A stretch of 64,000 bases of DNA, taken from Actinacidiphila cocklensis (lineage in GTDB: Bacteria > Actinomycetota > Actinomycetes > Streptomycetales > Streptomycetaceae). The DNA is taken from contig NZ_CAJSLV010000081.1 of assembly GCF_907177275.1 (NCBI RefSeq), forward strand, positions 1 through 64,000, in the 5' to 3' direction. Under the pieces are notes generated by a model. It was not told the origin of the DNA and did no database searches. It worked only from the letters and a program-made list of their open reading frames with translations. Numbering within the stretch: the first letter of the stretch is position 1; each line of letters begins with the position of its first letter. The position numbers and the translations under genes are program-made. Shown piece by piece: positions 48,468 through 49,774 of the stretch.

Positions 48468-48770
48468 TTACGGTCGCCGGTCGCCCGTGTCGGGTCCGCG
48501 GTGCTCGGCGGCGATGCCGAACCTGCGGCGTTCGCCCGTGGCGGACGCCCGGGAGCCGACGGTGGACACCGTACTGATCACCTGCTCCTCCGGCTGCTCG
48601 TCGAGCTGGCGCAGTCGTTGCAGGTCAGCGGCGGAGACGAGGGCGACGAGCGGCTTGCCGTGCCGGGTCAGCACCACCTGTTCACCGCCGTAGACCACGC
48701 GGTTGATGAGGTCGGCAAGCTCTGCCCGCGCTTGTGTCACCGGGACGTCATGGGTCATGCTCCCCATCAT
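48468..48770 (-). CDS. Phd/YefM family antitoxin, no adjacent toxin
   Basis: 100 residues. The Phd/YefM fold is clear: VPVTQARAELADLINRVVYG, then GEQVVLTRHGKPLVALVSAA, then DLQRLRQLDEQPEE. The C-terminal 45 residues (rich in Arg, Ser, Glu) are the usual disordered toxin-neutralising tail. Starts at 48770, 48767 or 48758 are possible. No RelE/YoeB or Doc-type toxin lies next to it: ureA follows and a clpP gene is divergent. A 17-base palindrome stands seven bases upstream and is the likely autoregulatory operator. Confidence 0.85.
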   Translation of the reverse strand: MMGSMTHDVPVTQARAELADLINRVVYGGEQVVLTRHGKPLVALVSAADLQRLRQLDEQPEEQVISTVSTVGSRASATGERRRFGIAAEHRGPDTGDRRP

Positions 48771-48776
48771 AACGAG

Positions 48777-48793
48777 ATGTACGTCCTGTACAT
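48777..48793. promoter_or_regulatory. Palindromic operator shared by the antitoxin and clpP genes
   Basis: ATGTAC (48777-48782), GTCCT, GTACAT (48788-48793) is a perfect 6-5-6 inverted repeat. It lies seven bases upstream of the antitoxin start and 25 bases upstream of the clpP start. Phd/YefM proteins bind short palindromes of this kind, so both divergent genes may be under antitoxin control. Confidence 0.65.
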
Positions 48794-48817
48794 TTTGAAC
48801 GCATGGAGGTGCTTGCC

Positions 48818-49453
48818 ATGTTCCGACCCACCGCCCGCTACGTGCTGCCGGAGTTCACCGAGCGCAGCAGCAACGGCATCCGCACCATGGACCCGTACTC
48901 CAAGCTGCTCCAGGAGCGGATCGTCTTCCTGGGCACCCCGATCGACGACACCTCGGCCAACGACGTGATGGCCCAGCTCATCCACTTGGAGAGCGCTTCC
49001 CCGGAACAGGACATCCACCTGTACGTCAACTCCCCCGGCGGCTCCTTCTCCGCCATGACCGCGATCTACGACACGATGCAGTTCGTCACCTGCGACGTCG
49101 CGACCGTGTGCATCGGGCAGGCGGCGTCGGCCGCCGCGGTGCTGCTGGCGGCGGGCACGCCGGGCAAGCGCATGATCACCCCGGGCGCGCGCGTCCTGAT
49201 CCACCAGCCGTCACTGGGCGACGTGGTGCAGGGCGACGTGTCGGACCTGGAGATCCAGGCCAACGAACTGCTGCGCACCCGCGAGATGTTGGAGACGCTG
49301 CTGGCCCGCCACACCGGGCAGGAGATCGACCGCGTCCGTACCGACATCGAGCGCGACAAGGTCTTCGACGCCGAATCCGCGGTCGCCTACGGGCTGGTGG
49401 ACCGGCTGACCACCAGCCGCAAGACCAACGGCCCCGCCTACGGACTGCGGTGA
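48818..49453 (+). CDS. ATP-dependent Clp protease proteolytic subunit (ClpP paralogue)
   Basis: 211 residues. The ClpP fold is complete: [40 protein letters not shown], the nucleophile Ser104 in [20 protein letters not shown], the histidine His129 in [20 protein letters not shown], and the aspartate in [20 protein letters not shown]. Streptomycetes have several clpP copies; this is a lone one, without a clpX or a second clpP beside it. ATG 48818 is preferred to ATG 48803 because GGAGGT stands six bases upstream. It is divergent from an orphan antitoxin gene. Confidence 0.93.
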
Positions 49454-49459
49454 GGCACC

Positions 49460-49774
49460 GTGGTGCCGGAACTGCCGCCGCTGCCGGCGCTGACCCGCTC
49501 GGAGGGCGAGCTGATCGACTGCTACCTGGAGGTCGTTGACCTGCTCGGCCGGATCAACCCGTCGCGCACCACCGACACGTACGGGGCACTGCGGGCCGCC
49601 CAGGCGCTGGTGGGCAGGGCGGTCGCGCTGCGCGAGGCGCTGACGGTGATGCATCTGCGCGGCGAGACGGATCTGCACCACGCCACCCTGGGGCGGGCGC
49701 TGCGGGTGCTCGACGGCGAACGCCGGTCGTCGCTCGCCGCCGTGCCGCCGGAGGCGGGTGGGGCCGCGGACTGA
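49460..49774 (+). CDS. Small helical hypothetical protein downstream of clpP
   Basis: 104 residues. GTG 49460 begins six bases after the clpP stop, so the two are probably co-translated. The predicted structure is helical (LTRSEGELIDCYLEVVDLLG, ALRAAQALVGRAVALREALT, HHATLGRALRVLDGERRSSL). No motif is recognised. The tight linkage suggests it could be an adaptor or partner of this ClpP, which is speculation. Confidence 0.6.
   Translation: MVPELPPLPALTRSEGELIDCYLEVVDLLGRINPSRTTDTYGALRAAQALVGRAVALREALTVMHLRGETDLHHATLGRALRVLDGERRSSLAAVPPEAGGAAD

Follow-up and report, generated by a model that had tools for sequence, protein, structure and literature searches.

The locus and its genes

The window analysed here is a stretch of 64,000 nucleotides from a 9.1-Mb genome of the genus Actinacidiphila. 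From left to right, the locus carries urease genes on the minus strand, a gene for a Phd/YefM-type antitoxin-like DNA-binding protein (48468-48758, minus strand), a gap of 59 bp holding a palindrome, a clpP gene (48818-49453, plus strand) and a gene for a small protein of 104 aa (49460-49774, plus strand). The antitoxin gene probably starts at the ATG at 48758 (96 aa) rather than at the ATG at 48770 (100 aa) chosen in a sequence-only reading of the same DNA, and the start of clpP is probably the ATG at 48818, with GGAGG ahead of it at 48805-48809. The clpP product, a paralogue of 211 aa, matches PF00574 (ClpP peptidase S14) at 1e-70 and has the triad Ser104-His129-Asp180. Only 6 bp separate the clpP stop from the start of the small gene, and three helices are predicted for its product, in keeping with the earlier description of a closely linked, helical protein. 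Pfam matches and ORF positions likewise bore out the arrangement of antitoxin, ClpP and 104-residue protein given in that reading, and the perfect ATGTAC-n5-GTACAT palindrome that it placed between antitoxin and clpP is present at 48777-48793 (ATGTAC-GTCCT-GTACAT).

The genome holds three ClpP genes, namely one adjacent pair and the lone gene of the window locus; a fourth match is weak (4.6e-7) and lies inside a much longer frame. Urease, NlpC/P60, DUF1996 and HATPase genes surround the locus in the interval inspected, 44-54 kb. Comparisons were made with 30 genus loci, which come from 34 antitoxin-bearing genus genomes (G009, G013, G029 and G034 were left out), and with a named set of Streptomycetaceae loci, the best 80 of 320 confirmed loci.

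Search for a toxin

The place downstream of the antitoxin gene where a toxin usually stands is occupied by ureA (urease gamma, PF00547; 48094-48396, minus strand), with 71 bp between the end of ureA and the antitoxin stop on the same strand. To look for a toxin, same-strand ORFs of at least 50 aa with high GC3 that start no more than 400 bp downstream were collected in the 80 named loci. This screen returned ureA in 25 loci, a second family in 21, other families in at most 4 loci each and no ORF in 17. The second family was rejected as a toxin; in most of the 6 members inspected it runs antisense to a longer membrane-protein-like ORF. The small protein is also unlikely to be a toxin, because 12 genomes that lack the antitoxin carry its gene. 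Elsewhere in the window genome, three of the four other PF02604 loci have a toxin-like ORF directly downstream (YoeB, YoeB and PIN/VapC, judged by eye), and no clear neighbour was seen at the fourth. An adjacent cognate toxin, the criterion of a type II toxin-antitoxin module, is thus missing at the window locus, and no conserved toxin-like family takes its place in the 80 named loci, as expected for the orphan antitoxin proposed from the sequence.

The antitoxin-family protein

The antitoxin matches Pfam PF02604 with 45.4 bits, against a cut-off of 29.8, and also matches TIGR01552. Its N-terminal half is nearly invariant among 36 aligned sequences, including R11 and R32, which we take from their motif position to be the counterparts of R10 and R31 of E. 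coli YefM. Those two YefM arginines are named as operator contacts in the portion of PMC3303803 consulted. Within the genus, dN/dS is 0.08 for residues 1-50 and 0.39 for residues 56-90. The C-terminal stretch VISxVS...RFGIAAEH is conserved in the same 36-sequence alignment. The structure model of the protein is weak (mean pLDDT 56) and was used only for its low-confidence tail; the tail is predicted to be disordered, yet its motif is conserved. At four loci (L067, L072, L091 and L107) the antitoxin is kept with its tail intact, and clpP, the small gene and the element described below are absent nearby.

A conserved directional element before clpP

The palindrome has a single exact match in the 9.1-Mb genome, and with up to 2 mismatches it has 2 matches in the window against 0.21 expected from shuffles. 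The window holds 78 perfect 6-n5-6 palindromes of any sequence, so symmetry by itself says little and the evidence is conservation. By eye, the palindrome is perfect in 26 of the 30 genus loci. In all 30, the 18 consecutive columns from 48779 to 48796 are invariant, while the clpP leader right after them varies; the left edge of the element is not marked by this alignment, as conservation on that side continues into the antitoxin gene. These columns form the core of a putative operator/promoter element, GTACGTCCTGTACATTTT on the plus strand, which in the family consensus extends to TTTTTTACAG.

A second comparison used 65 loci of other species, a set that omits L057 (4 mismatches) and the repeats of genus loci L044-L051, L054 and L061. 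Here, 17 of the 18 core columns carry 1.7-2.0 bits and the fifth, which is G or A, carries 1.2; the seven columns after the core carry 1.2-2.0 bits and the five before it 0.2-0.9. Columns past the element have at most 0.6 bits, and some further left, in the antitoxin leader, have 1.0-1.9. The full element is directional, reading GTAC(G/A)TCCTGTACATTTTTTACAG, with GTAC, GTAC and TTAC at 9-bp intervals. Since the outer letters of the left arm are poorly conserved, the perfect palindrome is one version of this directional element.

The position of the element is tied to clpP. In 75 of the 76 named loci that have clpP, its 13-nt core, with up to 2 mismatches, precedes the approximate clpP start by 21-132 bp and shares the orientation of the gene; the remaining one, L057, shows the half-sites with a different spacer. 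Fifteen of the 75 have the element at a distance of 62 bp to 3 kb from the antitoxin start, yet still before clpP. In six genomes (G216, G102, G258, G256, G254 and G285), antitoxin and clpP are separated by 10-37 kb or stand on different contigs, and here too the element accompanies clpP. None of the four named loci that lack clpP shows the element next to the antitoxin; a match at L067 was left out of the counts, being 1.8 kb away and downstream of nothing relevant. TGTAC occurs within 120 bp upstream of the antitoxin in all 61 adjacent loci and is missing from that interval in 11 of the 15 separated loci, so autoregulation is not universal.

The element may be read as overlapping two promoters. 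Conservation ends about 9 nt after the predicted clpP -10 box (TACATT, 48789-48794, plus strand), about where a start site would be; this box was placed within the element from the conservation edge and from a copy before an epimerase gene. That copy is in genome G259, where a second perfect element stands directly before the ATG of an NAD-dependent epimerase gene (L162:2022-2046; G259:C34:57021), 9 kb from the main locus. The epimerase gene is possibly a second target of the regulator, as well as a guide to the promoter. Counted from the predicted start site, the predicted sites have their centres at about -21, -12 and -3 and span about -23 to -1, positions that would suit a repressor. By eye, no conserved -35 box of a clpP promoter is recognisable in the 15 separated loci, and its absence could indicate an activator instead. 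On the minus strand, the predicted -10 box of the antitoxin gene (TATGAT, 48766-48771), read from the sequence, lies 7 nt before the ATG, making a leaderless antitoxin transcript likely. At L160 (G009:C2:150177), a second element stands with a 5'-fragment of clpP and lacks an antitoxin; it seems to mark a damaged duplicate of the locus.

The letters of the element recall the antitoxin family itself. According to the parts consulted of two papers (PMC7730913, PMC3303803), TGTAC(A) is the core of YefM and Axe operators, where it is paired 12 bp apart. The putative operator of the window type has GTAC/TGTAC cores at a spacing of 9 bp as against the 12 bp of the YefM type. Compared by eye with the published boxes, GTTCGC-5N-GCG for ClgR and TCTGCC-3N-GGC... 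for PopR (PMC9765437, PMC9775585, as excerpted), the conserved site upstream of clpP is of the GTAC type and unlike either.

Co-occurrence of antitoxin, element and clpP

Antitoxin, clpP and small gene stand together in 30 of 30 genus loci and in 76 of the 80 named Streptomycetaceae loci. Of 297 genomes of the family, 158 have the antitoxin (E up to 1e-8), 136 contain the exact 17-nt element and 166 carry the small gene (E up to 1e-6). All 136 genomes with the element carry the antitoxin, and none of the 139 antitoxin-less genomes has the element. Such profiles ignore shared ancestry, except in the table made within the largest genus group, where the element is present in 95 of 112 genomes with the antitoxin and in 0 of 41 without it (17 antitoxin only, 0 element only). 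In a class-level sample, the antitoxin was matched in 30 of 345 genomes, 6 of them outside the family. It is divergent from clpP in four of these six (G365, G429, G555 and G517), with repeated TGTAC in the gap of the first three and a single TGTAC in G517; clpP was not found in the fetched stretch of the other two, one of which is a contig of only 3.5 kb. In G517 (L234) the antitoxin is divergent from an adjacent clpP pair and not from a lone clpP. The synteny is thus kept across the genus, the family and four genomes of other families, beyond close strains, and the suggested link of the orphan antitoxin and its palindrome to the window clpP is supported.

The exceptions were also followed. 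The exact element is missing from 22 genomes with the antitoxin, of which 21 were examined (G114 was left out). In 14 of these the fetched stretch has a version with 1-3 mismatches, including G155, where it overlaps the start of the ClpP alignment, G274, which has no clpP, and G249, which has a clpP fragment. G130 has an element with 1 mismatch beside the antitoxin and no clpP, G251 an element with a changed spacer, and G037, G044, G065 and G099 TGTAC repeats of another form; G085 has the antitoxin with neither element nor clpP nearby.

On the other side, 48 of the 139 antitoxin-less genomes were tested for a lone clpP, and none has a full-length one. In 35 of the 48, all 108 ClpP matches (E up to 1e-20) are in adjacent pairs; another antitoxin-less genome, G005, has two clpP pairs only, and in the 12 that keep the small gene the lone clpP is absent or truncated. 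The loci of 7 of these 12 were fetched; none of the 7 has an element with up to 3 mismatches, and antitoxin tail fragments persist in four.

The asymmetry in these counts would fit an unconventional toxin-antitoxin-like module, in which the ClpP paralogue, often with an incomplete triad, would poison or reprogram the cell's essential ClpP rings; the antitoxin would act on it twice, as its repressor and as a partner bound through the RFGIAAEH tail. The antitoxin persists without a nearby clpP (four named loci, G085, G130 and G274) or with a fragment (G249), and a full-length lone clpP is found in 0 of 48 genomes without the antitoxin. Even so, we regard such a module as unlikely.

The same distribution bears on whether the element is the clpP promoter or operator of some other regulator, with the antitoxin a mere passenger. 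The 15 loci where the element tracks clpP rather than the antitoxin promoter would agree with this, as would the four named antitoxins that have neither clpP nor element. Against it, the antitoxin is present in every genome with the element, including those in which 10-37 kb separate the genes or each has a contig of its own, and G274 and G130 keep the element beside the antitoxin without clpP. TGTAC is, moreover, the operator core of the antitoxin's own family, and the site resembles neither the ClgR nor the PopR box (PMC9775585, as excerpted). The pairing also recurs with different ClpP lineages. In a 58-row tree (root arbitrary, several forks weak, long branches flagged), antitoxin-paired ClpPs fall in the lone lineage, in the clade of one housekeeping pair member and in another clade, which argues for a functional bond rather than for an inherited neighbourhood alone. 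A passenger role is accordingly rated quite improbable.

The ClpP paralogue and its catalytic triad

In the same tree, the window ClpP stands apart from ClpPs of paired genes. Its Ser-His-Asp triad is intact, as it is in 30 of 30 Actinacidiphila loci. Of 66 named loci beyond the genus, 27 have a complete triad (28 if a copy with an in-frame stop in the aligned stretch is included) and 38 an incomplete one; among 24 further family loci, some of them repeat strains of the named set, it is intact in 12. These scores were taken from alignment columns, which replaced an over-strict motif regex (18/57). Around the triad, the alignment is clear in the 57 named sequences displayed, a set that includes two fragments. 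The replacements are varied (e.g. SRD, SDD, SSD, ARE, PDE and GQV), and the antitoxin-linked ClpPs of G037, G044, G065 and G099 retain no triad residue. One copy reads SHN and may still work, by analogy with the Asn-bearing ClpP1 of Listeria, which works in a complex according to the portion of PMC9765437 consulted.

A 97-row quick tree, made with the triad columns left out, requires a minimum of 15 switches between intact and non-intact triads. Median dN/dS is 0.34 for pairs with the same altered triad, 0.41 for any two altered copies and 0.30 for intact pairs, and the number of positions conserved to at least 95 percent is 71 among 50 altered copies and 91 among 40 intact ones. To judge from these substitution patterns, the altered copies are under purifying selection, somewhat relaxed, and are not plain pseudogenes. 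Inactive ClpP homologues as such are already known, since they made up 21 of the 121 Clp-like proteins in a survey of 2008 (PMC2605481). Among 24 paired-gene ClpPs, five from clpP3-clpP4-type pairs (L211, L213, L215, L218 and L227) have Gly at the expected catalytic His (SGD or SGE); this may be one member of each of the five ClpP3/4-type pairs.

Antitoxins are common substrates of Clp and Lon proteases. From this, the sequence-only reading had proposed a feedback loop, in which the antitoxin represses clpP and is in turn degraded by the window-type ClpP, giving a self-adjusting circuit. The intact triad of the window and of all genus loci would allow for it, as would the predicted disorder of the antitoxin tail. 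In the excerpted account of PMC4989188, S. cattleya RelB was destabilised in E. coli by 4 of 6 ClpP-ClpX pairs, including that of ClpP3, a gene product listed there apart from the other clpP genes. However, the triad is incomplete in many loci, 38 of the 66 named non-genus ones, while operator and antitoxin are kept, so the loop is not general. For a Streptomyces YefM produced in E. coli, the loss of Lon alone made the protein more stable, and the loss of ClpP or ClpX did not, as reported in the portion of PMC6521030 consulted, which speaks against degradation by ClpP as a general rule. Further, Streptomyces ClpP1 or ClpP2 alone degraded no proteins in the excerpted experiments of PMC9765437, so the lone ClpP may not degrade proteins either. 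The tie of antitoxin and site to clpP therefore holds up, and degradation by the window-type ClpP does not as a general mechanism. A loop is possible in some species, because the window triad is intact and S. cattleya ClpP3-ClpX shortened the life of RelB; as the explanation of the locus, it seems improbable.

The small protein

The 36-sequence alignment of the small protein has 34 invariant residues, and its AlphaFold model consists of three helices (mean pLDDT 81). No Pfam or NCBIfam match (E up to 1) and no PDB sequence match were obtained. A Foldseek search with the model gave a best E of 0.69 and no informative structural match; with VIA-align the best Z was 8.6, over rows covering mostly residues 8-74, a level common for helical bundles. 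No known adaptor was recognised in these searches, and they neither favour nor contradict the adaptor role suggested in the sequence-only reading.

Related cassettes in PKS-NRPS clusters

Related cassettes were found in two PKS-NRPS clusters (G116:C27, L194 and L195; G220:C16, L196). In both, antitoxin and element are divergent from a thioesterase gene, behind which come clpP, the small gene and the genes for PKS proteins and an NRPS. The two clusters also have a PPTase and a methyltransferase (Pfam was run on the G116 proteins only), and the cassette of the G116 cluster is a second copy beside the usual locus. Both cluster ClpPs have the catalytic motifs and fall in the housekeeping clade of the tree, not with the lone type. 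G116 and G220 are candidate producers of ClpP-directed compounds. Culp and colleagues reportedly described clipibicyclene in 2022, with a clpP-bearing inhibitor cluster.

These cassettes raise the question of whether the lone ClpP and the small protein protect against natural ClpP inhibitors as a decoy or insensitive subunit, which the antitoxin would switch on under attack. Precedents are ClpP-ADEP, a proven resistance factor (PMC12607617, PMC8182300), and a ClpP-inhibitor cluster that was marked by its clpP gene (PMC13386464), each as given in the parts consulted. Protection of this kind would be compatible with a repressor role of the antitoxin, but no biosynthetic genes were seen around the window locus in the 44-54 kb inspected, and the ClpPs of the clusters group with the housekeeping type. 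We consider protection doubtful as the function of the window locus.

Proposed mechanism

We consider it likely that the antitoxin-like protein is a stand-alone regulator, most likely a repressor, dedicated to the operon of clpP and the small gene. This explanation builds on the observed layout, element, co-occurrence, triad loss and purifying selection; from these we infer binding, repression, a signal and mixed rings. The regulator would bind GTAC-type sites 9 bp apart, overlapping the predicted -10 box of clpP and its own predicted promoter, such that a single site would govern both divergent genes. Its conserved tail, the part that holds the toxin in toxin-antitoxin pairs, would probably receive the inducing signal, either through release by a partner or through proteolysis. 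The repressed ClpP would serve as an accessory subunit and not just as a protease. Where its own triad is incomplete, as in many lineages, joining or capping the rings that other ClpPs form would be the only way left for it to act.

Relation to known systems and meaning

The locus shares with YefM-YoeB and Axe-Txe the Phd/YefM domain, paired TGTAC(A) over a predicted promoter and the counterpart contact arginines; unlike them, it has no toxin, its divergent target is clpP and its spacing is 9 bp rather than 12. As in ClgR-clpP1P2 and PopR-clpP3P4, each clpP unit would have its own regulator, although ClgR and PopR are paralogous activators and the window locus has an antitoxin-family protein that is probably a repressor. 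ClpP-ADEP and the clipibicyclene and metaze clusters resemble G116 and G220 in having an extra clpP in or near biosynthetic genes, whereas the window locus, in the 44-54 kb inspected, is outside any cluster and its ClpP is apart from the cluster ClpPs. The inactive ClpP isoforms of chloroplasts, as described in the portion of PMC8182300 consulted, likewise have the ClpP fold with an incomplete triad and are kept by selection; in contrast to them, triad loss here is varied and repeated within one single-gene bacterial locus.

A lone clpP of this group may already have a name. In S. lividans, clpP5 is monocistronic according to the excerpted text of PMC9765437. Genome G179 has exactly two adjacent clpP pairs and a lone gene, so that, by elimination, the lone gene may correspond to clpP5; the window-type clpP has the small gene behind it. 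In the open-access literature searched, the texts consulted describe no regulator of a streptomycete lone clpP, and no title or abstract found deals with an antitoxin-clpP pairing.

The new proposals are a dedicated regulator, an exact DNA site and a conserved partner gene for the lone clpP, to be set beside ClgR-clpP1P2 and PopR-clpP3P4. At this locus the active site decays repeatedly while the control stays fixed. Non-catalytic ClpP subunits are known from the cyanobacterial and chloroplast line, and the locus suggests that their use extends to other bacteria. It further suggests that an orphan antitoxin can take on the role of an ordinary transcription factor, as a rule with a single conserved target.
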